Shown here: positions 3,172-29,702 of the stretch, piece after piece | How positions within the stretch are numbered: the stretch's first letter is position 1 | Layout of the letters: every line of letters starts with the position of its first letter | Source of the DNA: a virus | IMG/VR virus record: IMGVR_UViG_3300009161_000075 | Span: 1 to 47,090 of that record | Reading direction: 5' to 3' (one strand) | Length of the DNA: 47,090 bases | Position numbers and translations under genes: made by a program | The notes under the pieces: generated by a model | The model's input: only the letters and a program-made list of their open reading frames with translations | Told to the model about the DNA's origin: nothing | The model's database searches: none

Positions 3172-6100
3172 ATGAGTTTAGCGCTGGTTATTCATACCGA
3201 AAATAAAAATAATCTAAAAAGACTTTTTGAATTAATTAATAATCACCCAAATAAGAGTGAGTTTTCTTTAGTATTAAACGCAAAGGGTTATCTTCCATGG
3301 GAAGATGAAATATTAAAAAATTCAATAATTAACTTCAAAGAATTTTATGCATATCCCACCCAAAAAAATAGAGTTGAGTCTATTGTAGAATTAATTTCAA
3401 AATCAAAAAGTGAAAAAATTCTATTGTTAGACGAAAATATAAAAAAATTAGATTTAACGTTATTAAATGAAGATAATCATAATTCTTTATATTTCAGAAA
3501 AAAAGATTTAATAAAGGTAAACTTAGATACAAAATACCAAACAATTAAATGGTTTATTGTTGATTTGTTGTCACAAATTAAAAAAATTAAAATTAATGCT
3601 GTTGATAAGTCGGCGGACTACGAAAGATATTCAAAAAAAATACAATCACCTTTATTTCAGGAAAAAGTAATTTACATAGATGGTGGTATGGGTGACCATA
3701 TAATGGCTTTACCATTATTAGAAAAAGCAGGTAAAGATGTTTATGTGTCTTGCAAATATCCATTTGTTTATGAACACTTAGAGTTAAAGGGTAATATACA
3801 TTGGAATGAAGAGTTGTTTGGTGGTTATAATAGATTTGTATATGAATACGGTTCAGCGAATAACAGCAAAACAATCGTAGATGCTTTTTTTGAAATGTAT
3901 GGTTATGAAAGAACAAAAAACGATGTTTTAAAATACACGGGTAAAAGAGAAGAAAATCCAGATATACCACAAGACAAAAAAATAGCTTTGATTTGTACTA
4001 GCGCAGCAAAAGTGCAGGGGTTAGATTCGAATAAAGATTGGCGAGATATTAGATGGTTAAAGCTTGTTAATGAATTGCAGAAAATGGGATATTTTGTTGT
4101 TCAAGTTGGTAGTAAACCTGATAATCAAATTCCAAATGTTAATCTAAAGTTTTTAGATAAACCCCTACCAAATATTGCCGACCTTGTTGATAGGTGTTCT
4201 TTATGGGTTAGCGTTGATACATTTTTTCATCATTTTGCTTCTGCAATTAAACCTCAGGTAGGGGTGTGTTTAACACCATTTTATAATGACCACGCAAAAC
4301 ACTCTGGTGTTACTTACATTGAAAAGGATTGTGGTAAGGATTTTTCAGAAAGAAGATGGTGGTTGGATTTACAGCAACCCGAAAGAAAAGAGTGTATGGA
4401 CTTAATTAAAATAGAAGATGTCCTTAATTCAATTAATGAAAAGACATCAAAATTAAAAATATTAATAGCTAGTCTACAATTTAATGGATTAAGTGGTTCT
4501 GAACTATACGTTTATGAATTAGCAAAACAATTTGTAAAAATGGGTCATGACGTTAGCGTTATAGCTGAAGTAATTGGTGGTAAATTAACAAAAATGGCGG
4601 AAAAAGAAAATATAAAAGTTTTTTCAATGTGCGCACCTCTTGGTTACGAGTATGGAAAAACGCCTGAAAATTCTCATTTATTGTATAAAACACATGATGT
4701 TAAATTTGACATTATACACGTAAACCAATACCATATAACAGACTTTATTTGTAAGCTTTACCCAAATGTAAAAAAGATAGCTACAATTCATTCTGAAGTT
4801 ATTGAAGAGTTTGAAAAACCATACATTCATGAATCAATAGTTAAATATATTTGCATAAGGCCTGAAATACAAAATCACATAATTAAAAATTATAACATAA
4901 GTAGGGAAAAAACAACTCTTATATATAATCCTGTAGATAATAACAAGTTTAAAAATAAAAATAATTCTGATAAAAACTATATTTTATTTGTTGGTAGTTT
5001 AAATTATTTAAGACAAAAACCAACATTTGATTTAATTGAACGAGCTAAAAAAGAAGGTAAAGAATTGTGGATTGTTGGGTATAGTAATGGGTCACCATAT
5101 ATTGATGATATATTGGGTATTGAACATTTAAAATATTTTGAGGATACTCAAAATATTGAAGAATTTGTAAAAAACTCTTCATATACGGTAAGTGTTTTAT
5201 TTGGTAGGACGGCAATAGAAAGTTTTATGTGTGGTAAAAACTGTTTAATATATGACATAGATGAGGTTGGAAATATTTTAAATAGTAAAATGCATACACC
5301 ACCAAATGATTTAAAAAAATATTATTCAGACAATGTTGGTGAAGAAATTGTTAAACTTTACTATAATGTTTTAGAAAAAACAACCAGATTTCCTGTTTGC
5401 ATAAACGTTAATTTTTATAATAAACACTTATTGAACCAAAATATAGAAAACTGTTTAGAATTTACTAACGATATTTTTTTAAATATTGAAGACAAATTGG
5501 ATTTGTATATAGATGAATTTAATGAATTAAAAAATAAAAAATTAATAAAAGATTTTTTAAAAATTAAAAACAAAACAAATTTTTTTACTGATTTAAATTA
5601 TAATAATTTTATAACTTTTGATGCTGATGAGTTTATAGAATACGACAAAGTTAAAGATATGGCAAATTTTTTTGAGAGTAACAAATATTCATCACTAGAT
5701 ATAAAAGTAATTAAACATTTTAAAAATTTGAATCACGAGTTAATTTCAGAGATACCCGACTATAAAAAAATTGTTTTTTCAACAAAAGAAACAAATAATG
5801 ATTTTGTAACTGATATATTTGAGCTTCATGATGTCAAACAAACATATATTGAAAATAAAAGTGAACGCGAATTAGAAGTTCATAAAAATTTTTATTATTT
5901 TAATGATTTTAATACTTTAACAATAAATAACAAAATCTACAAAATAGAAAGAAAAGATAAATGTTTTTTAAAATTTAAAAATTTAAAAAATGTAATAGTT
6001 TTTTGTAAAGATGCAAATGATAACTGTTCAAATTGGAGAGCCTTTCAACCATACGATAGATTTGAAAATAATATAAATTACGACATAGATTCAAATCTAG

Positions 6101-6978
6101 TTTTTAATTTAGATAAAGTTAAAAATTATGATTTATTTATCATATCCAGACCAATTTTAAATATTGCTTGGTATTTTAAAATGATAATGGAAAGTGGTGT
6201 TAAAGTAATGGTTGACTATGACGACCCATTTCCTTTAGAGCCATGTTATGTACCAAATTATAGAGAAATTATGAAAGAGTGCTATAATATTATATGGGAT
6301 AATTTAAATGTTTTATCGACAACAACAGAGGCTCTACAAAGATATTATCAATTACTTACTTTAAATGAAGTTGTTTGTTTACCAAATATTGTTAAACCAA
6401 ACTTATATACGCCAAAAATAGAAAGAAATGATGGTAAAATATATTTAGGTTGGTACGGTAGCGGTGGGCATATTGTTTGTTTAGAAAAAATAAAAAATGA
6501 CATTTTTAAAATATTAGACGAATTTGAAAATGTTTATTTTGTATTAGCAACTGATAACATAGATTTGAAAAATTTTATGAATCACCCTAAAACAATACAT
6601 CATAATTATGATTTTAATTTTTTAAACTTTGAAAAAAGTTATAGCACAATTGATATAAATTTATCTCCGTTAGCAGAAACACCAGATTTTTTATGTAAAT
6701 CAAATATACGTGTTCAACTAGCGGCTATGAAGGGAATACCTAGCATAGCAACTAATTTTGGAGAATATAAAATATTTGGTAGATTAAATAATGGCGCATT
6801 GCTAACAGAAAACGATGAATGGTACGACAAAATTAAATTTTTAGTTACAAATGAAAACGAAAGAATTGAATTAGGTAAAAGAGCAAAAGAAACAATTGAA
6901 AAATACTATAACTATAAAAAACATTCTTTTTTAAGAGATGTACAAATAAAAAAAATTATAAACCGTGCAAAGATTTGA
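3172..6978 (+). CDS. Multidomain glycosyltransferase (GT9-like + two GT4-like domains)
   Basis: 1268 residues, far longer than a single glycosyltransferase (about 350-400). Residues 1-150 may be a degenerate GT-A-like domain (LLLDENIKKLD), but this is weak. Residues 166-420 resemble the GT9/heptosyltransferase fold: a GGMGDHIMALPLL start, then LICTSAA, DWRDIRW and a late SVDTFFHHFASAI segment. Residues about 429-735 look GT4-like: LIASLQFNGLSGSELYVYELA at the N-terminus, then IYNPVD, ILFVGSLNY and a C-terminal FGRTAIESFMCGK motif. After a Lys/Asn-rich linker, residues about 940-1268 form a further GT-B-like unit (NWRAFQPYDRF, VDYDDPF, LGWYGSGGH, LAAMKGIPSIATNFGEY). Donor and acceptor are unknown. 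The gene overlaps the next by 14 bases. It is A/T-richer and Lys/Asn-richer than the structural genes, consistent with horizontal acquisition. Probable role: sugar decoration of virion parts or of host surface polymers. Confidence 0.8.
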   Translation: MSLALVIHTENKNNLKRLFELINNHPNKSEFSLVLNAKGYLPWEDEILKNSIINFKEFYAYPTQKNRVESIVELISKSKSEKILLLDENIKKLDLTLLNEDNHNSLYFRKKDLIKVNLDTKYQTIKWFIVDLLSQIKKIKINAVDKSADYERYSKKIQSPLFQEKVIYIDGGMGDHIMALPLLEKAGKDVYVSCKYPFVYEHLELKGNIHWNEELFGGYNRFVYEYGSANNSKTIVDAFFEMYGYERTKNDVLKYTGKREENPDIPQDKKIALICTSAAKVQGLDSNKDWRDIRWLKLVNELQKMGYFVVQVGSKPDNQIPNVNLKFLDKPLPNIADLVDRCSLWVSVDTFFHHFASAIKPQVGVCLTPFYNDHAKHSGVTYIEKDCGKDFSERRWWLDLQQPERKECMDLIKIEDVLNSINEKTSKLKILIASLQFNGLSGSELYVYELAKQFVKMGHDVSVIAEVIGGKLTKMAEKENIKVFSMCAPLGYEYGKTPENSHLLYKTHDVKFDIIHVNQYHITDFICKLYPNVKKIATIHSEVIEEFEKPYIHESIVKYICIRPEIQNHIIKNYNISREKTTLIYNPVDNNKFKNKNNSDKNYILFVGSLNYLRQKPTFDLIERAKKEGKELWIVGYSNGSPYIDDILGIEHLKYFEDTQNIEEFVKNSSYTVSVLFGRTAIESFMCGKNCLIYDIDEVGNILNSKMHTPPNDLKKYYSDNVGEEIVKLYYNVLEKTTRFPVCINVNFYNKHLLNQNIENCLEFTNDIFLNIEDKLDLYIDEFNELKNKKLIKDFLKIKNKTNFFTDLNYNNFITFDADEFIEYDKVKDMANFFESNKYSSLDIKVIKHFKNLNHELISEIPDYKKIVFSTKETNNDFVTDIFELHDVKQTYIENKSERELEVHKNFYYFNDFNTLTINNKIYKIERKDKCFLKFKNLKNVIVFCKDANDNCSNWRAFQPYDRFENNINYDIDSNLVFNLDKVKNYDLFIISRPILNIAWYFKMIMESGVKVMVDYDDPFPLEPCYVPNYREIMKECYNIIWDNLNVLSTTTEALQRYYQLLTLNEVVCLPNIVKPNLYTPKIERNDGKIYLGWYGSGGHIVCLEKIKNDIFKILDEFENVYFVLATDNIDLKNFMNHPKTIHHNYDFNFLNFEKSYSTIDINLSPLAETPDFLCKSNIRVQLAAMKGIPSIATNFGEYKIFGRLNNGALLTENDEWYDKIKFLVTNENERIELGKRAKETIEKYYNYKKHSFLRDVQIKKIINRAKI

Positions 6979-7582
6979 AATAATAAATGAGCTAATTAAA
7001 AAGAATAATTATAGCACCTATTTAGAAATTGGTGTTAGAAATCCAAACGATTGCTATAATCATATCGTATGTGAATTTAAAGAAGGGGTTGACCCATGTA
7101 TTGAAGAAGAGCATCCTGTTACATATAAAATGACATCTGATGAATTTTTTAAAACACACAAAAAAAAATACGATATTATTTTTATTGATGGACTGCACAT
7201 AGATGAACAAGTTGAAAGGGATATTATTAATTGCCTAAATTCATTAAATGAAAATGGAATAATAGTATTGCACGATTGTAACCCCCCATCATTACATTTT
7301 GCAAGAGAAGAATATTACGATTTCTCAACCCATGCAGGAATACTTTGGAATGGTACTGTGTGGAAAGCGATAGTAAATGTAAGAGAAAATATTAATAATA
7401 TTTATACTTCAGTAGTTGATACAGATTGGGGTATTGGACTCATAAAAAAATCAGAAAATCCAAATCCAATTATAAATAAAAATAAATATTTTTCTTTTAA
7501 AAAATTTGAAGAAAAAAGACAATACTATCTTAATTTGATAACAGTTGAAGAATTTAACAAAATGTATTTACAAAATGATTAA
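6965..7582 (+). CDS. Class I SAM-dependent methyltransferase
   Basis: 205 residues, starting at a GTG inside the end of the glycosyltransferase gene (14-base overlap); no nearby in-frame ATG fits better. Motif I (YLEIGVRNPND, about residues 19-29) is the SAM-binding loop. The pair YDIIFIDGLH (about residues 69-78) and NGIIVLHDCNPP (about 97-108) is characteristic of the Methyltransf_24 type, in which IDG-x-H and HD help bind metal or cofactor. Family members often O-methylate sugars or small molecules. Lying translationally coupled between two glycosyltransferases, it probably methylates the glycan made by its neighbours. It could instead act on a nucleotide sugar precursor. It has no DNA-methyltransferase DPPY/NPPY-type motif. 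Confidence 0.75.
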   Translation: MQRFEIINELIKKNNYSTYLEIGVRNPNDCYNHIVCEFKEGVDPCIEEEHPVTYKMTSDEFFKTHKKKYDIIFIDGLHIDEQVERDIINCLNSLNENGIIVLHDCNPPSLHFAREEYYDFSTHAGILWNGTVWKAIVNVRENINNIYTSVVDTDWGIGLIKKSENPNPIINKNKYFSFKKFEEKRQYYLNLITVEEFNKMYLQND

Positions 7583-9338
7583 TTTAACTTGGCTTGCAAA
7601 ATTTGATGATTATTCATCAATGGGTATTTTATCACAAAAAATAATTGAAAATTTAAAATCAACTAACGTATCCTGTAAATCAATTATTGGAGATAGCGCT
7701 ACTTCTAATGAATTAATAATTAATTTGTTAAAAGAAAAATCAAAAAATGAAATAGGTATAATGTTTTCATACCCAGACCAACACCCACAATTAAATCAAT
7801 ATCAAACAAAGGTAATCTACACAGGTGTTGACTCAACAGGTGGAATACCAAATTTCGCAAATAATGCAAATAATGTTGATTTTATTTTAACACCATCAAA
7901 CAAATCAAAAAAAAGAATGGAAATTTTGGGTGTTAAAAAACCAATATTTGTATTTCCACATGGAATTGACCCAAATGTATTTAAATATAGCGAAAGGGTA
8001 AAATCAGATGTTTTTAAGTTTCTTTACGTTGGTGAATGTTCGGATAGAAAAGGAATTTTTCAACTATTAGAAGCGTTTATTGATACATTTGAAGATAATG
8101 AAAAAATTCAATTACATATCAAATCAAATACTGATATGCTTTTTTATGGTGGGGATAAAATTAAAAGTATTATAAGTTCCCATAAAAATATATTTTGGCA
8201 CACAGGGAATGAAGGGCATGATTATGTTTTAGATTTATATCGCAGTTGTCATGCATATGTATATCCATCAAGAGCTGACACGTTTGGTATGACTCTGATT
8301 GAAGCTATGGCTTGTGGGTTACCAATAATATCAACTAGTGAACCAGGCGCAACTGAATTAATAGAAGGTAGGTATTTTAAAATATCAACTACAAATGTTC
8401 CAGTTAAAGAACATCCATGGATGTTAGGTGAGTGGGGAGAACCAAGTATTAACGATTTAAAATTATTAATGATAAAGGTATACGATAATTATGAAAACAT
8501 TATTGCTTCCAACAGTTTAAAACAAAACTCAAATTTTATAAAAAATAATTATTCTTGGGAAAAAGTAACTAAAGATTTTGAAGACAAAATTTTACCACAA
8601 TTAAAAAAAGAAACAAAAATATTAACATTATTAACATCTTATAACAGACCAAATCATATTAAAAATATAATTAATTCATTAAAAGATATTAGGCAGGAGG
8701 GTATTATTAACGATGTTTACATTGTAGATAATTCAAACGGCGATAATAAAGAAGAAATTGTTAGTCTTATTAATGAAATAATAGATAATAGATTTACGTT
8801 GTATGTATCTGATTTTAATATGGGACAAAGAGGTGCTTTGCTTCAGATGTTAGAAGATGTTAATATTGATGATTACGATTATATTCAGTTTACTGACCAA
8901 GATAACATATTTAATGAAAATCTTAGTACTTATTGTGAAATATTAAATGAAAACCCTGATGTATTTTTTACTACGGGATATATGAGCAAAGAACATGCTG
9001 AGTTGGGTTGGAGAAACACAAAACACGGAAAGCTTTGTGAAAAACGTTCATTAAGGGCTGGTCATATGTTCATGAGAAAAAATGATTTAAAAAGCCTGTA
9101 TCCTTTGCATTTAGATGCGCATTACGGTGAAGCTTACAATTCATCATGGAATGCTGGATTGGATTGGGAGTTATCTTGGTGGAACGCTAAGTCGCCTGGT
9201 AAAACACGGAGTAATAACTTTGTTTTATGTGTGCCTGGTGGGGTATTGCACAAGGGTGTTGATAGTACAATGTATGCTTGGGACGTAGAGGCTAACGAAT
9301 ATCAACTAGAGGAGTTGGTTGATTTAAGAAATAAATAA
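7575..9338 (+). CDS. Bifunctional glycosyltransferase (GT4-like + GT2-like)
   Basis: 587 residues from the ATG at 7575, which overlaps the upstream stop by 8 bases. A TTG ten codons earlier is possible but less likely. The N-terminal half is GT4-like (GT-B fold): FLYVGECSDRKGIFQLLEAF, then PSRADTFGMTLIEAMACG, where the E-x7-E motif appears as D235-x7-E243. The second half, from about residue 347, is GT2-like (GT-A fold): LTLLTSYNRPNHIKNIINSL, then a DQD metal/nucleotide motif at 441-443. Two transferase folds in one chain suggest two successive sugar additions. It forms a coupled operon with the two upstream genes and lies directly before the tail sheath gene. Together they look like a phage glycan-building cassette. 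The specific sugars cannot be read from the sequence. Confidence 0.82.
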   Translation: MINLTWLAKFDDYSSMGILSQKIIENLKSTNVSCKSIIGDSATSNELIINLLKEKSKNEIGIMFSYPDQHPQLNQYQTKVIYTGVDSTGGIPNFANNANNVDFILTPSNKSKKRMEILGVKKPIFVFPHGIDPNVFKYSERVKSDVFKFLYVGECSDRKGIFQLLEAFIDTFEDNEKIQLHIKSNTDMLFYGGDKIKSIISSHKNIFWHTGNEGHDYVLDLYRSCHAYVYPSRADTFGMTLIEAMACGLPIISTSEPGATELIEGRYFKISTTNVPVKEHPWMLGEWGEPSINDLKLLMIKVYDNYENIIASNSLKQNSNFIKNNYSWEKVTKDFEDKILPQLKKETKILTLLTSYNRPNHIKNIINSLKDIRQEGIINDVYIVDNSNGDNKEEIVSLINEIIDNRFTLYVSDFNMGQRGALLQMLEDVNIDDYDYIQFTDQDNIFNENLSTYCEILNENPDVFFTTGYMSKEHAELGWRNTKHGKLCEKRSLRAGHMFMRKNDLKSLYPLHLDAHYGEAYNSSWNAGLDWELSWWNAKSPGKTRSNNFVLCVPGGVLHKGVDSTMYAWDVEANEYQLEELVDLRNK

Positions 9339-9395
9339 ACTCTAATATGCTTATTGTCTTTTTTTGTAAAATATATCTTGGTGACTAATTTTTAA

Positions 9396-9442
9396 ATATT
9401 TATCCTTATATATTTAATTTTCGGTTTTTCTTGAATATTTAT
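9396..9442 (+). promoter_or_regulatory. Two copies of the ATATTTAT element upstream of the sheath gene
   Basis: ATATTTAT occurs at 9396-9403 and at 9435-9442 in the 148-base gap before the sheath start at 9487. The same element precedes nine other start codons in this window. A promoter role is inferred from its position. The gap otherwise holds only A/T-rich sequence, with an A-rich leader before the ATG. Confidence 0.5.
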
Positions 9443-9486: not shown

Positions 9487-12400
9487 ATGGCAGAAAAAGT
9501 ATTCGTTAGTCCTGGTGTCTACACTTCAGAAAAAGACTTAACATTTGTGACACGTCAAGTAGGTGTTACAACATTAGGTTTGGTGGGTGAAACAACGAAA
9601 GGACCAGCATTTCAACCTATTTTCATTAGTAACTACGGCGAGTTTCAATCGTTTTTTGGTGGTTTAAATAATACATTGGTAAATGGTCCAGACGGAAATG
9701 GTTCACCTTTGTATGAATTACCATACATCGCAAAATCATATCTATCACAATCGAATCAATTATTCGTAACAAGAATTCTTGGTTATTCTGGTTATGATGC
9801 TGGTAAGGCTTGGGGTATAACACTTGATGCTGCTTTAGATAATTCAACAGTAACGGCAACAACAAGTTCTTATACCCCTAGTGTTATATATACTGCGACA
9901 AATTCTAACGTATTGGTAAGTACGGTTATTAATGACCCAATATTGCGTTATTTGGTTGGTACTGGTGATGTTAGTTTAGCCCCATTACCAACATTAACGG
10001 TTGGTCAGATATTAACATTAAGTGTAAGTACAAAAAAAGATAGTGGTTTATTTACTGGTGCTAATAGTCAATTACTTGTTACTCAAGCTGGTACTTCACC
10101 TAATGTGTTAGACCCAACAACAACTGGTTCAACATTAACAAACGTTAGTATCACCCCATTTGCATCATTTACAGCAGACCCTTCAAACAATCTATTAAAT
10201 ATTGTAATAAATGATTCTTTAGTTACTAGTCTTTATAATAATGGTAACTTTAGTCTTAGTACCTTACCTACATTAACAATAGGTGGAACAGGTGTTATTC
10301 CAAATTCATTTATAAATGTTGGTGGTACAAGTTATAGCGGTGCTGGTGCTGTTTATACTGTTATTTCAGGTGGTACAACCCCTATGACTTTAAGCTCTGC
10401 CACTGTTGGTTTAATTAGCACTGCAAATACTAATCCGTTTATTATCTACACATCAACAACTGGTGGTGTTCTTTCTGCTATTCAAATTAATGAACCAAAT
10501 ACAAATGCAGCATATAATAATTCAAACTTTAGCTTAAGCGGTATAACTACATTAGCTGTTGGTTCTACAGGTTCAATTGCTAGAAACTATCTAAATGTTG
10601 GTGCTAGCTTTACTGGTAATGAATCTAACTATGTTGTAATTGCAACTGGTTTAACACAAAGTGGTGTTAATACAACAACAACCGCAAGTACAACTAGTGA
10701 TAGTTTTTCACCATTCATTAATTACACAGCAACAACTGGTAATACATTAATTACTGCAACAATTGCGGACTCATTAACTAATAGCCTATATCAAGCTGGT
10801 AATTTTAGTCTTAGTGGCTTACCTGCAACAGCAACTGGTCTTACTAGTTCAATACCACAGTCGTTTATTTATAATGGCTCAATATTTACTGGTGCTAGTG
10901 CATCATATACCGTATCACAAACTGGTATTACACCATACTATTTTAATGCATCTAGTACTGGTGTTTCAACAACAGCGAATTATAACCCATTAATAAGTTA
11001 CACAGCAACAACTGGTGGTTTATTAACAACAGCTATAATTGCAGACCCATTAACAAGTGCGTTTTCTGGAGCTTCTTTAATTAGTTTGGCGTCGGTGCCT
11101 GGATTGGGTGTTGGTGTTAGAGGTGTGATTCCTTTTGTTATGACAGGTTCTGGAGCCGTTTATACAGGTGCTTCTTCAAATTATATCATTACAAGTAAAG
11201 TAACAGTTCCAGCGGCAATTAATACAGCAACAACTGGCTTAACAAATGGTTCATCAACACCTATAAACGCTAATCCATTAATTACATATCAAACAAATAC
11301 ATTAACAAACAGTACAAGTTATGTTATTAATAATAATGTTCTAAATGCAATGTTTGTTGCAGGTAACTTTAGTTTAGCTACATTGTTTAGTGGTGCACCA
11401 GTTGGTACATCGTTTAGTGTACCTCTTAGTTTTGTACAAAGTGGCTCATCGTATGTTGGTGCTTCTGCGGTATTCTCAGCAGCAACTTCAGGTGCAACAC
11501 CTCAAACAATAAATGCTAGTACAATTGCAACTTCTAGTAGTTTTATTCAAACTAATTGGTTTCAGTTTTCTGCAAATACAGCAACAAATACAGCAAGTAT
11601 TAGTATTACTAACGATACATTGCCATTATTTAATGCGTTTTTAACAGCAAATAATTTAACAAATCCAACAGGTGTAGCGGGTGCTAACGCAATTAATTGG
11701 TTAGTTGGTAAACAACCAGCACCATTAGCATATTATCAGTTTTTATATACTCAGACATCACAATTTTCAGCAGTTGGTGCAACATATTCTGGTATTTCGA
11801 CCTTTGTTATAATAAAATCAACAGGGGCTACTGCAAATCCAAATATTTACACTGGTTTGACTCAAGGTTTTGAGTATGTTCAAACAGCGTCTGCAAACCC
11901 ACCATTTGTTACAGGTACAACATCTGGATTTACAATTCAATATAGTGGTGCTCAAACAGCAGCGTATATAGCAGGTATTGCTTCAGGTATAACAACATTC
12001 TATTCTGGTTCGGGTATTAACTATAAAACAGGTACAACATTCGGAAACGTATCGTACTTATCTGGTAACCCATTAACAGTTTATAGAACGGGTACGACAT
12101 CTGGCTTTACAGGTATATATTCAGGTACTGGTGCATTTCTTAATACAGGTACTACATCGGCAATTGTAAATTACTATTCAGGTACTTCAGTTGCAGTATA
12201 TAAAACAGGTTCAACATCTGGTTTTACAACATATAGTGTTGGTAGAGGTTACGCCGATGTTGAAGATAAATTAGTTAGTTTACTTCGCTCTAGAGGTACT
12301 GTTAATGTTCAAACTCAATTACCTGTGTTCCAAGTTAGTGCTACAACAGGATTAAATTTTGACCCAACAATTACAACAGCAGAACTAGACCCTTACGGTT

Positions 12401-14418
12401 CATTCTCTTTAATTGGTACATCAAATACTCAGGGCGCATTTACTTATGATTGTTCTTTCGATAGAACACAGAGAAATTACATAACTAAAGTTCTTGGTAG
12501 AGCACCATTAGATGGTAAAACTGCTGTATACGTTGAAGAATTCTTTGATAAAATGTTTGTTGAGTATGTTAATGACGGTAAAGTTAGAGGTATCAATTTA
12601 GATGTTATCGACTATGCTGGCCAATACTCAGATTACTTACAAGAATATCAACCAGCGGTTACACCTTATGTTGTATCAGAATTAAGAGGTAATAAATTGT
12701 TAAGATTATTTAGAATCTGGACTATATCTGACGGTAACGCAGCAAATGAACAATATAAAATTTCAATCGCTAACATTAAACCAGATACAAGAGAGTTTGA
12801 TGTATTAGTAAGAGGTTTTTATGATACAGATGCTAATCCTAATATCATTGAAGCTTATTCACGTTGTACAATGGACCCAACTTCAAACAACTTCGTTGCT
12901 AGAAGAATAGGTACATTAGATGGTGTATACGCATCAAAATCTGCTCACATCTTACTTGAACTTGATGAAAGTTCTGATACAAGTGATGCATTCCCAGCTG
13001 GTTTCATTGGATTCCCAGTTAGAGATTATGAAATTAACTCTAACCCAAATGTTCAAACACCTAGCATAATGTATAAGCAAACTTATGGTGCTTTTGAAAA
13101 TAAACGTAAGTACTATTTAGGTTTATCTAATACAATCGGTATTGATGCTGACTTCTTTGATTACAAAGGTATACCTGTTGGTCAAGATTATGATATGTGG
13201 ACTGGTTTAACAAAAGGTTTCCACATGGATATTGATGCTACAGGTGCTACAATTGATAATGTTAAAGTTGTTATTAATAATAGTGGTGGTACATATAGTC
13301 CAATATTCTTATTCGACACTGGTGATTGGCAGTTTAGAACTGACGCTGGTTTACTTAATGGACCATATGAAAAAGTATATGCTCGTAAATTTACTTTTGC
13401 ACCTTATGGAGGTTTCGATGGTTTCGACCCTTACAGAACAAGAAGAACTAACCTAGATAGCTTTACTATCAATGGTACAAGAGGTGCTGCTGGTTTAAGT
13501 GTTGGAACATTCGCAAACAAAACTCTAACTAATGGTGATTTAGGTATTACATCTGATTACTACGCTTACTTAGAAGGTATCTGGACATTCAAAAACCCAG
13601 AAGCTGTAAACATTAATGTGTTTGCTACGCCTGGTATTGATGACATTGATAACACAAATCTTGTTGAAGCTAGTATCGAAATGATTGAGCAAGACAGAGC
13701 TGACTCTTTATATGTTGTAACAACACCTGATACAAATTCTGATGGTACAATATTAAGTGTTGGTGATATAACTAACCAATTATCAGATATGTACGATAGT
13801 AGCTACACCGCAACATACTGGCCTTGGATTCAAATCCTTGATGCTGAGAACAATGTGTACATCTACGTACCGCCAACAAGAGACGTTGTAAGAAACATTG
13901 CTTTAACTGATAATATTGCATTCCCTTGGTTCGCAGTAGCAGGTATTCAAAGAGGTGATGTTGACGCTCTTAAGGCTCGTAAGAAGTTAACTTTAAGTGA
14001 AAGAGACGTTCTTTACGAAAACAGAATCAACCCAATCGCAACATTTACATCTGATGGTATTAAGATTTGGGGTAATAAAACTCTACAAGTTAAAGAAAGT
14101 GCTCTTGACAGAATCAATGTTAGAAGACTTCTTTTACAAGCTAGAAAACTTATCTCTGCTGTGGCTATTAGATTGTTGTTCGAACAAAATGATACTATCG
14201 TAAGAAACCAATTCTTGTCACTTGTTAATCCAATCTTGGATAGCATTAGAACCGAGAGAGGTTTAGTAGACTTCAGAGTTGTTTTAAGTAACGACCCAGA
14301 AGATATCGATAGAAATCAATTAACAGGTAAGATTTACCTTAAACCAACAAGAGCTCTAGAATTTATCATTGTTGAATTCAACATCATGAACACTGGTGCT
14401 TCATTCGATAACATTTAA
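9487..14418 (+). CDS. Tail sheath protein with a large repeat insertion (T4 gp18-like)
   Basis: 1643 residues, against 659 for T4 gp18. The N-terminal segment (about 1-120) has the sheath start: SPGVYTSEKDLTF, then GLVGETTKGPAFQP and a long helix ending QLFVTRILGYSGY. The C-terminal part (about 919-1643) is the conserved sheath core, with NINVFATPGI, YWPWIQI, VPPTRDVVRN, FPWFAVAG and a C-terminal EFIIVEFNIMNTG strand. This strand extends between subunits in contractile sheaths. Between them, about 800 residues form a Thr/Ser/Asn/Gly-rich beta-type insertion made of two repeat families (annotated separately). The core would form the contractile cylinder around the tube; the insertion would decorate the outside. 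The gene is preceded by two ATATTTAT elements and followed by a strong terminator. Confidence 0.93.
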   Translation: MAEKVFVSPGVYTSEKDLTFVTRQVGVTTLGLVGETTKGPAFQPIFISNYGEFQSFFGGLNNTLVNGPDGNGSPLYELPYIAKSYLSQSNQLFVTRILGYSGYDAGKAWGITLDAALDNSTVTATTSSYTPSVIYTATNSNVLVSTVINDPILRYLVGTGDVSLAPLPTLTVGQILTLSVSTKKDSGLFTGANSQLLVTQAGTSPNVLDPTTTGSTLTNVSITPFASFTADPSNNLLNIVINDSLVTSLYNNGNFSLSTLPTLTIGGTGVIPNSFINVGGTSYSGAGAVYTVISGGTTPMTLSSATVGLISTANTNPFIIYTSTTGGVLSAIQINEPNTNAAYNNSNFSLSGITTLAVGSTGSIARNYLNVGASFTGNESNYVVIATGLTQSGVNTTTTASTTSDSFSPFINYTATTGNTLITATIADSLTNSLYQAGNFSLSGLPATATGLTSSIPQSFIYNGSIFTGASASYTVSQTGITPYYFNASSTGVSTTANYNPLISYTATTGGLLTTAIIADPLTSAFSGASLISLASVPGLGVGVRGVIPFVMTGSGAVYTGASSNYIITSKVTVPAAINTATTGLTNGSSTPINANPLITYQTNTLTNSTSYVINNNVLNAMFVAGNFSLATLFSGAPVGTSFSVPLSFVQSGSSYVGASAVFSAATSGATPQTINASTIATSSSFIQTNWFQFSANTATNTASISITNDTLPLFNAFLTANNLTNPTGVAGANAINWLVGKQPAPLAYYQFLYTQTSQFSAVGATYSGISTFVIIKSTGATANPNIYTGLTQGFEYVQTASANPPFVTGTTSGFTIQYSGAQTAAYIAGIASGITTFYSGSGINYKTGTTFGNVSYLSGNPLTVYRTGTTSGFTGIYSGTGAFLNTGTTSAIVNYYSGTSVAVYKTGSTSGFTTYSVGRGYADVEDKLVSLLRSRGTVNVQTQLPVFQVSATTGLNFDPTITTAELDPYGSFSLIGTSNTQGAFTYDCSFDRTQRNYITKVLGRAPLDGKTAVYVEEFFDKMFVEYVNDGKVRGINLDVIDYAGQYSDYLQEYQPAVTPYVVSELRGNKLLRLFRIWTISDGNAANEQYKISIANIKPDTREFDVLVRGFYDTDANPNIIEAYSRCTMDPTSNNFVARRIGTLDGVYASKSAHILLELDESSDTSDAFPAGFIGFPVRDYEINSNPNVQTPSIMYKQTYGAFENKRKYYLGLSNTIGIDADFFDYKGIPVGQDYDMWTGLTKGFHMDIDATGATIDNVKVVINNSGGTYSPIFLFDTGDWQFRTDAGLLNGPYEKVYARKFTFAPYGGFDGFDPYRTRRTNLDSFTINGTRGAAGLSVGTFANKTLTNGDLGITSDYYAYLEGIWTFKNPEAVNINVFATPGIDDIDNTNLVEASIEMIEQDRADSLYVVTTPDTNSDGTILSVGDITNQLSDMYDSSYTATYWPWIQILDAENNVYIYVPPTRDVVRNIALTDNIAFPWFAVAGIQRGDVDALKARKKLTLSERDVLYENRINPIATFTSDGIKIWGNKTLQVKESALDRINVRRLLLQARKLISAVAIRLLFEQNDTIVRNQFLSLVNPILDSIRTERGLVDFRVVLSNDPEDIDRNQLTGKIYLKPTRALEFIIVEFNIMNTGASFDNI
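9877..11838 (+). repeat. Seven ~93-residue repeats inside the sheath gene
   Basis: Equivalent residues of successive units fall at 9877, 10156, 10435, 10711, 10987, 11275 and 11557, so units are 276-288 bases (92-96 residues). A unit reads roughly P-[FL]-I-x-Y-T-x-T-T-G, then T-x-x-I-x-D, GNFSLSxLP, a Gly-rich turn, and YTGAxAxYTV. Units differ at the DNA level, so this is an old, diverged protein repeat and not a recent tandem duplication. The last unit is the most divergent. Confidence 0.8.
11911..12240 (+). repeat. Six ~20-residue TGTTSGF repeats inside the sheath gene
   Basis: A shorter repeat follows the long units. TG[TS]TSGF-type motifs begin near 11911, 11968 (degenerate), 12028, 12088, 12145 and 12205, giving units of 57-60 bases (19-20 residues). 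Each pairs with a Y-[YS]-S-G turn. The regular spacing suggests a beta-solenoid or stacked hairpins leading back into the sheath core. Confidence 0.7.
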
Positions 14419-14466: not shown

Positions 14467-14474
14467 TTATAATG

Positions 14475-14482
14475 ATATTTAT
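14475..14482 (+). promoter_or_regulatory. ATATTTAT element
   Basis: GATATTTAT lies directly after the sheath terminator and only 4 bases before the preferred start at 14487. If it is a promoter, the transcript would be nearly leaderless here. Confidence 0.4.
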
Positions 14483-14486
14483 TGGT

Positions 14487-14924
14487 ATGGCAAAAATAAT
14501 AATTTCTGAACGACAATATAAGCTAATAACAAAACATGTTGAGGAATCAATAGACCCAAATGAAGCGTATAATAACGAATCAGCCATGCAAACAGTTTTA
14601 GATGGTAGAAGAGGTATTGCTTTTTTAGTGGCTTATCATGATAAATCAAGACAGCTTGTTTTAAGAGCTAAAGAAATGGGTTTTAATGTTATATCAATGC
14701 CGCAAAAGGGTGGTAGTTTTAAAGGTTCTGTAGCAAATGTTGTTTATAGGAATGGTTATGAGGAGGAAGCTCAAAGACTTTTTAATATTGTTAGAAAAAA
14801 TAATGGATTTTTACCAATAAAAACACCAGAAGAAACTTATGAAATTGGTATTCTGTTAGATTATGACCCTGAGAAAGTAAAAGAATTTGTATTAAAAAAC
14901 TTTCCAAACTTTAAATTTTATTAA
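14487..14924 (+). CDS. Unknown virion-associated protein with IISERQY N-terminus
   Basis: 145 residues from ATG 14487. An in-frame ATG at 14472 would add five residues, but the later start aligns with the N-terminus of the next gene (KIIISERQYKLI against KIILTEEQHYVI) and is preferred. The body has a hydrophobic strand (GIAFLVAYHD), a Gly-rich segment (MPQKGGSFKGSVANVVY) and a helix-rich C-terminus ending NFPNFKFY. No enzymatic motif is recognised. It lies alone between the sheath terminator and the 915-residue gene. The shared N-terminal motif suggests that both proteins are handled by the same targeting or assembly step. Being inside the tail module it is probably structural or an assembly factor. 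Confidence 0.65.
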   Translation: MAKIIISERQYKLITKHVEESIDPNEAYNNESAMQTVLDGRRGIAFLVAYHDKSRQLVLRAKEMGFNVISMPQKGGSFKGSVANVVYRNGYEEEAQRLFNIVRKNNGFLPIKTPEETYEIGILLDYDPEKVKEFVLKNFPNFKFY

Positions 14925-14932
14925 AATAACAG

Positions 14933-14940
14933 ATATTTAT
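14933..14940 (+). promoter_or_regulatory. ATATTTAT element
   Basis: GATATTTATATAATAA lies 17 bases before the start at 14958, in the same position and orientation as the other copies of the element. Confidence 0.5.
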
Positions 14941-14957
14941 ATAATAAAAAACGTATT

Positions 14958-17705
14958 ATGTCACAAAAGATTATATTAACTGAAGAACAACATTATGTTA
15001 TTATAAACCATATCCTAAGAGAAATGGTTGAAACAGATTCAACAATGAATGAAGAAATGTTGGACGAAGGTATGTGGGAAAAAATTAAATATGGTCTATC
15101 TAAATTAGGTAGATATAAAGCTGGGGGTAAAATATTTGGTAAAGGTAAAATAGACCAAGCAGCAGCAGCTAAAATTCAATCAATTATCGATAAAAAAGGT
15201 AATGAAATGATTAAAGCCCTTGACGCTGATATAAAACAAAAAAATCCAGAATTTCCAAACAATGAAAAGGGTGTTGAGTTTTTAAACACCATAATGGAAA
15301 TTTCAGCAGTATATGATTCAGTTATAGCCGCAACACAAAAAGACCCTAAAGATGAGGGTTATTTACCAATTGATGCAGCTAATGGTATTATTAACGACCT
15401 TAGAGAATACGTTAAAAAATTCTTAGATGTTGATTTAACAGCGGCATACTCTGTTGTTGATGAAGCTGAAGGAAATGTTGTTGAATTATCTGAGGAAGAA
15501 TTAAAAAAATTAGACGAAGATTGGAACCCAAAGGATTTTAATGATGAACCTCAGGAAGATAAAAGTGAGGAAGATGACGATGAAGTAAAAAATGCTAAGA
15601 CTGGTGACGAAAGTGGAATGGAGCGTAATATAGATGAAGATGCTGCAGATGATACAAGAAAAGCATTACAAGCAAAAAAAGGTACTGGTAAAGATTTTGA
15701 TAGTGATAGAATGAAGGGACTTAAATCAAATAAGCTACCATTGATATTAGCAGGTATTGGTGGTTCAATGGGTGGTTTATCTTGGTTAGCTAAAACAGAA
15801 TGGTTTAAAAATTGGTTAGAAGGTTTATTAGGTGCTGACCATACTGTGACAACACCTGAAATAACACAACAAATTACTGGCGGTGCTCCAGATTCAAAAG
15901 GTATGTTGAATTGGATGGGTCAAATTGATGGCCACCCAATGAAAACTGGTGCTGATGTTCAAGGATTCATTGACAAATATGGTGCTGAAAACGTTAAACA
16001 TATGTTTGACGGTAATGGTGGTGGTTCGCCAGATACACAAATTCAACAATTACAACAATTAGTTGGTGGTGATAACGCATCTAAACCAGTTGGTCAATTA
16101 TTCAACCCAAGTAATGATACTTTTGGTAGTATGAAAGGTGCTCAAAACCTTTTTGGTGTTTCGAAGGCTGCTAGTTTTTTAGGTCAAATAGTAATTAAAA
16201 AAGCAACAAGCACTTTAATTAAAGGAGCTGGAACAGCATTAGCTACTAAATTTGCTGGTTTAGCTGGTGTATTAGGACCTGTTGGTATTGCAATTATGAG
16301 TGCTGGTGCGCTTGTTAAGATAATGAGAATGAAAGGTGAAAGACAATCCAGAGCAAAAACACTTAATGACCTATATCAATCAATGAGAAATATTGAAGGT
16401 GGTGCTGGTATCATTGAACCAAATGGACCAACAATTGATAAAGACGAAGCACAAGACCCTAAAATAATTGATGGTAAAAATAAAGAAGAAGGCGGTAAAG
16501 ATGGTGGTAAAGGTGATGGTAAAGGCGGTAATAAAGGTGCTGGTGGTTTTGATGATGATTTATACAATAGTTTAAAAAACTTATTTAAGTTTATTGTCAA
16601 TAATAGAAAAATGTTAGGCGTTCGTGCGGCTGATAATGTCGGTACTGGTGGTGCAGCTGCTGGTAGTAAATCAAAAGGTGATAACTCAACACCTGAAACA
16701 TTTAAAAAAGGCGATAAAGTAATTTACAAAGGTAGAAATGTTACCGTTACAGTTCCAAATGTTTCACCAGGTTATACACAAATTGACGCTGATGGTAACG
16801 GACCTGAGAAAAAAACATATGCTGTTAAAACAGCAGATTTAAAAAAACAATTATCTGAAGGAAAGTATATCAAAGATAAAAGGTTAGTTCAATTCTTACA
16901 AAAAAATCTATCGTTTGACAAATTAAAATCATTTGAAGATTTTATGAACAGAGTTGAGATAATTAGAAATAAAGTTAAAAAACTTGGTAATAGTGAAGAC
17001 AAAGCAATTCAAAACTTTATGAAAAGTCTTGATAGCAATCCTATCATGGCAACTAATTTTGCTCAATTATTTGAAATTGACCCTGATAACGCACAAGCTG
17101 TTAATGCCCTAAAAGCATTTATTGATGATATATTTGTTAGCGTTTATTCTGGTAAATTCAAATATGGTAACATGATTGATAAAATGGCTAAACTTGGTGA
17201 TGGTGATATAAACAAAATTCAAGAAGAAAAAGGTTATAGTTCAAAAGAACCAAACAAAGCATTTATTAGAGATGCGCAAGATAGAGGAAGATTTAAAAAG
17301 AATCTAATTGAGTTCATGACCACAGCTATTAATTTATTCCAATATTTACACAAACAAAAAGCTGAAATGGCTAAAGGTGGTGGTAAAAGTGGTAAAAAAG
17401 GAAGTGGTGCAGCAGCTGGTGGTTCCACTGCAGGTGGTGGAAGTACTGCTGGTAGTTCTGCGACAGGTGGTGGTGGAAGCGCTGCTGGTGGTACTCCTAC
17501 GGCTACACCGCCTAGTGGTGGTGATGCTGAAGCTTCAGATGCTGATGCGTCTTCAGGTGCGTCTGGTGGTGGTGATGATGATGAATCATCAGACGGTGAA
17601 TCTAAACCATTTAAGCCAGCAACATATGAATCAGTTAATGGTAAAAATAAAGTATTAACTGAAGAAATAGAAAGAATTAAAAAAATAATGAGTAGTTTAA
17701 TATAA
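14958..17705 (+). CDS. Large unknown protein between sheath and tube genes
   Basis: 915 residues, not recognised. The N-terminus (KIILTEEQHYVIINHILREM) matches the preceding gene's N-terminal motif, and the C-terminus (LTEEIERIKKIM) is a similar amphipathic helix. Residues about 190-240 are strongly acidic. Two hydrophobic Gly-rich stretches, near residues 255-290 (LPLILAGIGGSMGGLSWLAK) and 420-455 (FAGLAGVLGPVGIAIMSAG), could insert into membrane or pack as helical hairpins. Residues about 512-530 are Gly/Lys-rich, 575-630 contain a small beta domain (FKKGDKVIYKGRNVTVTVP), and 805-880 are Gly/Ser/Ala low complexity. The position between sheath and tube argues for a virion or tail-assembly role, perhaps a protein ejected with the DNA, but this is inference. 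Confidence 0.7.
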   Translation: MSQKIILTEEQHYVIINHILREMVETDSTMNEEMLDEGMWEKIKYGLSKLGRYKAGGKIFGKGKIDQAAAAKIQSIIDKKGNEMIKALDADIKQKNPEFPNNEKGVEFLNTIMEISAVYDSVIAATQKDPKDEGYLPIDAANGIINDLREYVKKFLDVDLTAAYSVVDEAEGNVVELSEEELKKLDEDWNPKDFNDEPQEDKSEEDDDEVKNAKTGDESGMERNIDEDAADDTRKALQAKKGTGKDFDSDRMKGLKSNKLPLILAGIGGSMGGLSWLAKTEWFKNWLEGLLGADHTVTTPEITQQITGGAPDSKGMLNWMGQIDGHPMKTGADVQGFIDKYGAENVKHMFDGNGGGSPDTQIQQLQQLVGGDNASKPVGQLFNPSNDTFGSMKGAQNLFGVSKAASFLGQIVIKKATSTLIKGAGTALATKFAGLAGVLGPVGIAIMSAGALVKIMRMKGERQSRAKTLNDLYQSMRNIEGGAGIIEPNGPTIDKDEAQDPKIIDGKNKEEGGKDGGKGDGKGGNKGAGGFDDDLYNSLKNLFKFIVNNRKMLGVRAADNVGTGGAAAGSKSKGDNSTPETFKKGDKVIYKGRNVTVTVPNVSPGYTQIDADGNGPEKKTYAVKTADLKKQLSEGKYIKDKRLVQFLQKNLSFDKLKSFEDFMNRVEIIRNKVKKLGNSEDKAIQNFMKSLDSNPIMATNFAQLFEIDPDNAQAVNALKAFIDDIFVSVYSGKFKYGNMIDKMAKLGDGDINKIQEEKGYSSKEPNKAFIRDAQDRGRFKKNLIEFMTTAINLFQYLHKQKAEMAKGGGKSGKKGSGAAAGGSTAGGGSTAGSSATGGGGSAAGGTPTATPPSGGDAEASDADASSGASGGGDDDESSDGESKPFKPATYESVNGKNKVLTEEIERIKKIMSSLI

Positions 17706-17762: not shown

Positions 17763-18251
17763 ATGGCCGATTTATTAATGAAGATGCCTTTGCCTTACGA
17801 ACCGAAGAAAAAGAATCGTTGGCTTATCACATTTCCTGCTGATTTAGGTATTCAACAATGGTGGTTAGAAACTGCTTCTAGACCTTCAATTACACAAAAT
17901 GAAGTTGAGATTCCATTCTTGAACACTTCTACTTGGGTTATTGGTAGATTTACATGGGAAACTATTGATGTTACATTTAGAGACCCTATTGGCCCTTCAG
18001 CTACTCAAGCTATTATGGAGTGGGTTCGTTTACACTCTGAATCTATTACTGGTCGTCAAGGTTACGCAGCTGGTTATAAAAGACCTGTTGAACTTGAAAT
18101 GCTTGACCCGACTGGTGTTGTTGTTGAAAAATGGTTATTAGATGGTACTATGCTTACAAACGTTGGCTTTGGTGACTTAGCAATGGATGATGATGGTATC
18201 GCTCAAATCACTGCAACACTTAGATTTGACAGAGCAATCTTATTATTCTAA
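17763..18251 (+). CDS. Tail tube protein (T4 gp19-like)
   Basis: 162 residues, matching T4 gp19 in length (163). It has the tube-protein pattern: a basic N-terminal loop (PLPYEPKKKNRWLITFPADL), then beta strands with TASRPSITQNEVEIPFLN and WETIDVTFRDPIGPSATQAI. A loop with RQGYAAGYKRPVELEMLDP and a final strand (ITATLRFDRAILLF) follow. These form the stacked hexameric rings through which DNA passes. The gene is monocistronic in appearance: an ATATTTAT element lies upstream and a terminator downstream, as expected for a protein needed in many copies. Codon choice is less extreme than in the glycosyltransferase cluster. Confidence 0.95.
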   Translation: MADLLMKMPLPYEPKKKNRWLITFPADLGIQQWWLETASRPSITQNEVEIPFLNTSTWVIGRFTWETIDVTFRDPIGPSATQAIMEWVRLHSESITGRQGYAAGYKRPVELEMLDPTGVVVEKWLLDGTMLTNVGFGDLAMDDDGIAQITATLRFDRAILLF

Positions 18252-22748: not shown

Positions 22749-25700
22749 ATGCCAATAATATATTATGATACATCAGCGCCTACGGCGGTAAATAAGAATT
22801 CAATTACTAGAACGGCATTAGATTTTGGTATTCGTGATTTTTTATTAAATTTAAATATTCAAAATCCAATTAGGTATCCACAGTTACCTACATCTGTTAA
22901 TGGTTCACCAAGAGGTGGAGAACCATTTTTGGATACAATGGTTGGTAATGGTTCTGTACCACAACAAAATCCACTTGAAGTAGATGGTGTATTTCGTTAT
23001 GATAATGCTATCATAATGAATCTTTATAAAAACCAAGACCCAGCTGCGCCACAGTTCTTAGATATTATTGATATTACAACAACACCAATATTTCCTGTTC
23101 CTCCAAATGGAACCACTCAATATCCAACAACACCAAATTCAGATACAGAACAATATGGTTTATTAGCAAAAAGTGATTTTGCTGAATACAGAAAACAAGC
23201 AACAATCAAGAATCTATATTTAGATGCTACTAAGCAAGTTGATATGGCTGATTATATATCACTTCAACCTGTTCAAACAGCACAACAATTACCAAGTTAT
23301 GATGAAGCATTTGGTCAACTGTTAGGTTTAGGAAAAGAAGCAACTCAAGCAGCTGATATTTTAGGTAGTTTATTAAATGGCCAGGGTGTTGGTATTGCTG
23401 GCGGTGCTGGTGGACTTAGTATAGTTCCAAATTTTGACTTAAGGTCATCATTAGCTGGTAGAGTATTAGGTGTTGCTGGTATTCTTAATGATACAAAATT
23501 AGGTATAATAGGTGCTGAACAATTAGCATTAGCATTAGCAAATAATGCAGCATTTAACACAGAACAAGCAATATTAGGTAAATTAAACCTTCAACAAAAT
23601 TTAAATGCAATACTTGGCGCAGGTGATTTTGAATTTCCAAGACCAAATTATAAAATTACTGTATCAGATGATTTATTAGGTAAAGTGGTTGGTACAGCTG
23701 AGCGTATATTAGGATTTACACTACCAAAAAGTAGGTTAGATGATAGTGGTTCTTTATTTTTTACTGAGAGTGGTGCGATATCAAATATAGATAGAGCTAA
23801 CTCAATGCTTGCAAATACTGGTAAAGGTCAAAGAAAAGCATTAGAGGTTCAATTCAAAGCAAATTTGTTAGGTACATCAAGTGACGGTAAAACAGATAAC
23901 CCAGATGAAACACCTTTTAGAAGTGGTTACTCACCTATGTATAAAGTTGGAGGTTCTAGCGACTTTTTAGTAGCTGGTGGTAAACCAAATTTATATGCTT
24001 TTAATGATTCACCAAGTGGTGATAATTCAGGTGCAAAAAGTGGAATAGTTAAGAATTTTTTAAAACCTGTAACTGAAGAGGAACCAATTAATGAAATGAA
24101 TTGGAATCGTGAAAAGCTAGTTACAGATGCTGGATTCGTTGGAACTCCTAACTCATCAAACCCAGCACCATTTGCTCAAAATTTTGCTTGGACATCAAGT
24201 AAAGGCGCTACAACAAATGTACTTCAAGGTGGACAAGTAGAATTAATTGATGCTGCATTTCCAGATAGCGATAATCCACAAATTACTGGCGAAAAGAAAT
24301 CACTATTAAGTAAAACACAAAAATTATTTAATAGCAGAGGTATGATGACAATGGTTTCAGCATACGGTAGCGCTGAAGCTGGTTATAATAAAGAACAGAC
24401 ACAAACGGCTGTATCACCAAATGGGTTTATATCAAAAGGTTCTGGTGTTTTAGCGGCTGGAAGGTTTAATCCAGACGGTACACTTGGAAATAGTACCGCC
24501 GATGATTCTGCTGCTAGTACTTTTTGTCGTGTATGGATACCACAAAATAGATATGATAAGGTTAATAAACTAATTAGAAGCCGTGGTTTAAACCAAAAAG
24601 AATTAAGTGGTGGTCAGATATTAACAGGTGGTACAAGGGGTTGGAGATTACATAATTCAGAAAGAATGTCTGTTTTAGATGATAATGGATTTGTAAAAAT
24701 TACACCATATAAGACTGATAACTTAACTAGACAATCTACAATACCTAAAAAATATATGTTCTCAATTGAGAACTTAGCGTGGGTTGGTTCACCAGCTGTA
24801 AATTTATTACCAATAGAACAAGGGCCAGGCGACCTTCTTACAGGTAAGTTTGGTAGGATAATGTGGTTTCCGCCATACGACTTAACATTTAGTGAATCTA
24901 GTTCTGTTAACCTAGAAAGTAATGTGTTTATTGGTAGAGGCGAGCCATTATATACGTATAATAACACTGAAAGAACTGGACAGCTTTCATTTAAGATAGT
25001 TGTTGACCATCCTAGTACAATGAATGGATTTAAAGGTAATAATGGGCCAACAGATGAATATATACGCTCATGGTTTGCTGGTTGTATAGATGATGATTAT
25101 TATTCAAGTTTATTAACACAAGAAGAAAAGACACAAATAACAACGAAACAAAGAGAAGTTGTTACAGAAAAAACATTGCCTCCACCACCAGACATTCCGC
25201 CATTTAAAGTTTATTTTAAAAATGATAGAGTTGATGTTGACCCGTTATATGAAGCGGCACCATATGGTAGCTCAGGCATAGGCACTTATTCTAGTATTGA
25301 ATTAGATTGGAAAAGGCAACCAGATGGTAAATGTATTAAATTAAAAAATACACGTAATTGGGATGATAAAACTAGCTACGCTTTAAATACAAAAGAAATA
25401 ACATTTGGTGATAAAAAGTTAAAAGGTTGGATTGACCCAGATTTTGCAAAAGCTATATCAGATTATCTGAGCAGTCCACCATTTAAAGATGTACAAGTAG
25501 AAATAAATGTAAAAGGCTGGGCCAGCACTCAAGGTTGTAAAGAACAAAATGTAATACTTGCAAACGAAAGAGGTAAAGCTGTTGCCGATTATTTAACAGA
25601 AATACTTAAACCTTTACCTGGTAATATATCAATTGCGTATATAAAAAATCCAGCAGCAGAAAAACCAGGAAATTATAATGCAAATACACCACAAGATGAT

Positions 25701-29381: not shown

Positions 29382-29702
29382 ATGGCAAGATATTTTGATA
29401 GATACGAAGAATTTAGAAATAGCGACTCGATAAAGCCAATGCCTGGCCTTACGTTAACACCAACCGCTAGTGATAAAACAGTATTATATAAACTAGGTGA
29501 GACAAGGCTTGACAAATTGAGTAATACATATTATAATTCACCATACTTTGGTTGGTTGATAATGTCTGCAAATCCACAATTTGGTGGTTTGGAATTTTTA
29601 ATTCCTGACCAAGCAACAATTGTTGTTCCATTTCCCTTTGAGGATGCGATTAGCAGGTATGTACAATTAGTAAACAATTATAAATTACTGTATGGGGGAT
29701 AA
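29382..29702 (+). CDS. LysM-like baseplate protein (T4 gp53-like)
   Basis: 106 residues, shorter than T4 gp53 (196). The core (KLGETRLDKLSNTYYNSPYF, GWLIMSANPQ, FLIPDQATIVVPFP) matches the LysM-like fold of gp53 and tail protein X families. In that fold a [GD]-E-[TS]-R-x-D turn leads into a helix, a W-x-[LI]-[IM] strand, and a closing I-P-x-x-x-x-[IV]-x-[VI]-P strand. In T4 gp53 joins wedges around the hub; in P2-type phages LysM proteins sit at the hub. It starts 6 bases after the giant baseplate gene and its stop overlaps the next start by 11 bases, so the three genes are one operon and probably one assembly unit. Confidence 0.78.
   Translation: MARYFDRYEEFRNSDSIKPMPGLTLTPTASDKTVLYKLGETRLDKLSNTYYNSPYFGWLIMSANPQFGGLEFLIPDQATIVVPFPFEDAISRYVQLVNNYKLLYGG

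Follow-up and report, generated by a model that had tools for sequence, protein, structure and literature searches.

The tail sheath protein encoded in the window (the whole stretch of DNA analyzed, 47,090 nucleotides) contains a large internal array built from a domain that most related sheaths carry once. The sequence available from the window's own genome is this single 47-kb record, IMGVR_UViG_3300009161_000075, from a virus of bacteria. The explanation toward which we lean, with modest confidence in it as a whole, is that one optional outer sheath domain was amplified about sevenfold to give a nested outward arm, and that these arms provide a weakly binding or shielding coat.

The sheath gene occupies positions 9487–14418 (+ strand) as one unbroken reading frame of 1643 codons (1643 amino acids). 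Its C-terminal half is matched by PF04984 (Phage_sheath_1) at the family's own cut-off, by PF17482 (1C) under its own cut-off, and by the tail sheath family PHROG 23 (3.5e-52). In a PDB profile search, a profile of single-copy relatives recovered T4 gp18 at 5.4e-49, with gp18 residues 3–82 aligning before the slot that holds the insertion and residues 339–653 after it; the N-terminal match is weak alone. The core comprises an N-terminal part (amino acids 1–118; 9487–9840, +), which contains the gp18 3–82 alignment and is 97% identical to the long sheath L001 and 93% identical to the single-copy sheath L007, and a C-terminal part (amino acids 924–1643 plus stop; 12256–14418, +), which carries the Pfam, PHROG 23, and gp18 matches. 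Judged from its sequence, the product is an intact T4-type contractile tail sheath protein. A tail tube gene (17763–18251; PHROG 4542, 4.9e-26) lies downstream, with two genes in between. The two genes that separate sheath from tube (14472–17705; 150 and 915 amino acids) have no PHROG match, and sheath-to-tube spacing across relatives ranges from about 70 bases to more than 3 kb.

The insert (amino acids 132–923) consists of six clear repeats of ~93 amino acids (A1–A6), a diverged seventh (A7), and then seven repeats of ~20 amino acids (B1–B7). A1–A6 (amino acids 132–690; 9880–11556, +) are 92–96 amino acids each and match the single-copy A profile at 1.5e-5 to 2.6e-17 per unit. They start at residues 132 (A1, 9880–10158), 225 (A2, 10159–10437), 318 (A3, 10438–10713), 410 (A4, 10714–10989), 502 (A5, 10990–11277), and 598 (A6, 11278–11556), all on the + strand. 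A7 (amino acids 691–788; 11557–11850, +) is located mid-insert and is strongly diverged, with weak A similarity. B1–B7 span amino acids 789–923 in units of 17–20 residues. B1–B6 (amino acids 789–906; 11851–12204, +; 19–20 amino acids each) follow the consensus TGTTSGFTxxYSGT, with B2, B4, B5, and B6 starting at 11911, 12028, 12088, and 12145 (+), respectively. B7 (amino acids 907–923; 12205–12255, +) directly precedes DVENKLVALLRSRG and aligns with the relatives' TGTTxGVTVYYSGTxY; it is the ortholog of their sole B and represents the ancestral copy, which is present in every single-copy relative among the matches listed.

A profile of the single-copy slot sequence from 43 relatives matched the window sheath at 2.2e-56, with six domains tiling amino acids 118–692; it also marks a weak seventh unit and the ~20-residue B repeats up to about residue 903. 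No other window protein gave a significant match to this profile. The first-pass annotation had described seven ~93-residue and six ~20-residue repeats in an insertion of about 800 residues. The seven longer units hold, A7 being strongly diverged, and the shorter ones number seven once the ancestral B7 is counted. The insertion is unusually large, as claimed, but its excess over close kin is about 690 rather than 800 residues, since the group ordinarily carries ~115 residues of this domain (one A and one B).

The insert is rich in Thr, Ser, Gly, and Asn (Thr plus Ser make up 30%), and charged residues (K/R/D/E) account for 3.2% of it, versus 20.9% of the core. It has no match to any Pfam family at E ≤ 1, and hence to no Ig-like family, no PDB sequence match, and zero matches among 50,697 phage records. 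A1–A6 share 22–47% identity among themselves and 73–92% with the matching unit of L001. A7 is 14–26% identical to the other A units and 35% identical to its L001 counterpart, compared with 73–92% for the flanking units. Repeats are detectable at the DNA level at 11911, 12028, 12088, 12145, and 12205, but they are short and imperfect, which indicates that the expansion is not recent.

An array of this kind could reflect a faulty assembly join or a reading error, and relatives bear directly on this point. The long sheaths L001–L004 (1636 amino acids) have the window-type array, and it is also visible in L005 and L011, which are cut by contig ends. L001, L002, L004, and L011 seem to represent a single virus, which leaves four distinct long sequences: the window, L001, L003, and L005. 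Relative to the window, dN/dS is 0.25–0.35 in A1–A6 and B1–B6. Because the architecture recurs in three other distinct sequences and its repeats are under coding constraint, assembly error is excluded in practice, and the proposed large insertion within an otherwise normal sheath is real. Relatives also do not encode a normal sheath with the insertion as a separate protein; the single copy sits inside their sheath, and the unit was not found outside sheath genes in any retrieved locus. Among the matches listed, multi-copy sheaths come from environmental contigs only, and the sole match in a bacterial genome is distant and lies in a small MAG contig. Judging by the Microcystis phage relative described below, phages of this group probably live in fresh water.

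Copy number varies widely among these relatives. The viral-contig scans returned the best 80 loci per query, and intermediate copy numbers may have escaped them. The first scan yielded at least 80 loci, in most of which the sheath is 941–959 amino acids long (~947) with one A and one B. About 100 distinct single-copy inserts, A followed by B, occupy the window's slot among the matches listed. After wider scans there were at least 190 unique inserts, all in the slot bounded by SGYDAGxxW and LLRSRG, and their lengths cluster at 11–16 residues (no domain), 126–137 (one domain), 185–202 (clade C), 239–250, 320–352, and 815–822. Zero-copy sheaths (L212, L250, L263, and others) are ~800 amino acids long with a slot of 11–16 amino acids, and the domain is likewise absent from Microcystis phage Mel-JY01 (812 amino acids) and its relatives (810–819). 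Thus the slot holds no domain in Mel-JY01, one in L007, and about seven in the window, although these sheaths, including L007 and others of ~947 amino acids, have their core in common. This natural series of none, one, and about seven copies in related phages offers a comparative test of the domain's function, the geometry of the arm, and the limits on a contracting sheath.

One sheath, L062 (1064 amino acids), was considered as a two-copy intermediate and rejected; its second unit lacks significant similarity to A (E 0.82), and this stretch is therefore counted as additional sequence at the A/B boundary. Clade C shares the ends of the slot, but its A domain is not clearly shared (hhalign aligned the first 34 columns only). 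In L286, two distinct sheath genes stand in tandem (3495–6359, 955 amino acids; 6456–9416, 987 amino acids), and each encodes a separate version of the slot domain; the start of a second tandem sheath gene is also visible in L285.

A core tree that took in three zero-copy sheaths and left out clade C places the multi-copy sheaths in one monophyletic group (support 1.0), which forms a supported group (0.994) with L007, L009, L024, and L062. The zero-copy sheaths are also monophyletic (1.0) and are sister to the single-copy L277 (0.997). Since they nest inside the single-copy tree, the domain was lost in this subgroup; its loss from a derived subgroup indicates that it is dispensable for contraction. 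The expansion is older than the split between the window and L001, because A1–A6 are nearer to their L001 counterparts than to each other. Between the same two sequences, dN/dS is 0.06–0.12 in the core and about 0.8 in A7, rough values given that dS exceeds 0.8. Evolution is faster in the insert than in the core, and fastest of all at the insert's center (A7), which is farthest from both anchors.

The range from zero to about seven copies in related sheaths is what might be expected of a nearly neutral expansion that has no specific function and is tolerated because the slot faces outward. We consider this unlikely: six units stay in frame, with dN/dS of 0.21–0.28 across all pairs, and the array has persisted through the divergence of four distinct sequences.

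The order of the units is A...A B...B rather than ABAB. Simple tandem duplication would give ABAB, whereas the observed order is explained if copies were inserted at the A/B junction. This order suggests recursive nesting, in which A belongs to the outgoing and B to the returning chain. In the predicted structure of L007 (whole-model pLDDT 60.5), the end of A and the start of B form two 17-residue strands joined by a 3-residue turn (local pLDDT about 73–84). In a mean-field covariation analysis of 106 inserts (Neff 78), the strongest pair falls on this hairpin's antiparallel diagonal, as do two others among the 25 highest-ranked; because the insert set is small, this result is supportive only. 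Extra linkers and domains in other sheath lineages are located exactly at the A/B junction, which marks it as an acceptor site. The stretch between the end of A and LRSRG has a median length of 40 residues in single-copy sheaths. In clade C it measures 42 residues without extras, 75 with a Thr/Pro linker, and 152 with a ~90-residue domain. The ~90-residue domain found between A and B in L330, L359, L367, and L374 of this clade has no Pfam match.

These observations can be combined in a tentative mechanism. In relatives the domain consists of a ~93-residue A part and a ~20-residue B strand leading back to the core, with the last strand of A and B forming the predicted hairpin. New copies would enter at the turn of this hairpin, the A/B junction, so that the chain would exit via A1–A7 and return via B1–B7. 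Each A_i would probably be completed by B_(8-i), which would place A7 and B1 at the arm tip. The resulting protein would be recursive, a domain inserted about six times into the hairpin turn of a copy of itself to form a seven-level nested arm displayed on every sheath subunit; we regard this as plausible, its chances falling a little short of even. If nesting is right, it would represent an unusual case of protein growth through repeated self-insertion of a domain.

Alternatively, the surface domain may have been amplified without nesting, the A units being independent beads, the B units a separate strand-rich stalk, and the two arrays having grown independently by slippage. In a model of the whole insert that is too poor to weigh on nesting (mean pLDDT 36.6), A4 alone is confident, with a beta-beta-alpha-beta-beta fold predicted without a B partner, and neither an arm nor A_i–B_(8-i) pairing is seen. 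The similarity matrices of the A and B units also fail to track each other under nested pairing (r = 0.26, with 22% of permutations as good; r = −0.20 without A7), and DNA similarity is still recognizable among the B repeats. The A4 fold, the similarity matrices, and the DNA similarity of the B repeats would suit un-nested arrays. However, A and B lie within one predicted domain in single-copy sheaths, their counts agree (1/1 in relatives, about 7/7 in the window), and the extra material of other lineages falls exactly between them. We rate the un-nested reading as possible but doubtful.

The position of the slot provides information on where nested arms would be displayed. T4 gp18 is the best structural match of the L007 model. 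In gp18, Domain II is interrupted by Domain I (residues 98–188), which projects outward from the tail and does not contact other subunits (PMC3004832). The slot directly follows the gp18 3–82 alignment, and Domain I starts at residue 98 (PMC3004832); with the profile alignment stopping at residue 82, the insertion adjoins the place of the outward domain of gp18. Each sheath subunit would accordingly bear one arm that points away from the tail, beside the position of Domain I. We infer the outward direction, and with it an absence of hindrance to contraction, from sequence order relative to gp18 and not from a reliable superposition. Surface arms, put forward by the first-pass annotation, are the natural reading of this position, although no arm appears in the low-confidence whole-insert model.

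The core of the window sheath is homologous to that of gp18 (659 amino acids; 5.4e-49), which has a nested architecture of its own (Domain I within II within III within IV), with its outward Domain I at a nearby chain position (PMC3004832). The two differ in that gp18 has one ~90-residue Domain I, whereas the window slot is occupied by a domain in about seven copies, without a Pfam or PDB sequence match. Domain I is a six-stranded beta-barrel plus a helix. For the L007 domain and for A4, the models predict strands and a helix. Type 3 multi-domain sheaths of large phages also carry extra, mostly beta, domains away from the tube, some of them formed by one chain stretch running out and another running back (PMC9230969). 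Repeats go unmentioned in the searched text of that article, and the window sheath would represent serial amplification of one domain; unlike type 3 sheaths, it belongs to a series of none, one, and seven copies among relatives.

For the outer domains of phage tail sheaths, the proposed roles include both stability and adhesion (PMC9230969). In the phage 812 sheath, an additional domain touches neighboring subunits, and stabilization has been proposed for such domains (PMC9230969); by analogy, neighboring arms might touch and cement the extended sheath. That role seems improbable here: domain-less relatives evidently manage, gp18 Domain I lacks subunit contacts (PMC3004832), and the near-free divergence of the central unit is unlike that of a lattice contact. 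Adhesion or shielding is what is usually proposed for such domains (PMC9230969). The best-fitting function would be that of tail-surface arms for adhesion or shielding, most likely a weakly binding or shielding tail coat that keeps the phage near its host. The jumbo phages CBB and phAPEC6 have tail whiskers, surface appendages proposed to aid host contact, but the phAPEC6 filaments occur at discrete rings, the CBB gene is unknown, and whiskers are not known to be sheath repeats (PMC5259590, PMC7247149).

The first-pass annotation also suggested that the repeats are the substrate of glycosyltransferases encoded upstream, where the window contains two glycosyltransferase genes and a methyltransferase-like gene (3172–9338) flanked by a DUF7936 protein and the sheath. 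These genes and the 30% Thr plus Ser content of the insert would suit a scaffold for sugars. The idea is weakened and finds no support in relatives, since L001 and L003 have the array with no counterpart of the three-gene block beside the sheath. Weak glycosyltransferase-like matches, under the family cut-off, occur at other places in the L001 genome, but a single-copy relative has them as well, and D(S/T)(A/I/L/M/T/V) motifs number just three in the insert, equal to the core. Among the explanations weighed, we give sugar attachment the lowest probability.

Elsewhere in the window, two adjacent glycine-rich tail proteins (489–2483; Pfam Gly_rich_2) are apparent tandem paralogues, and similar genes occur in relatives. 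A 2208-amino acid protein (22749–29375) has a weak OmpA-like stretch, and a 2088-amino acid protein (29692–35958) matches tape-measure proteins in part. Should this second protein be the tape measure, a very long tail is possible.
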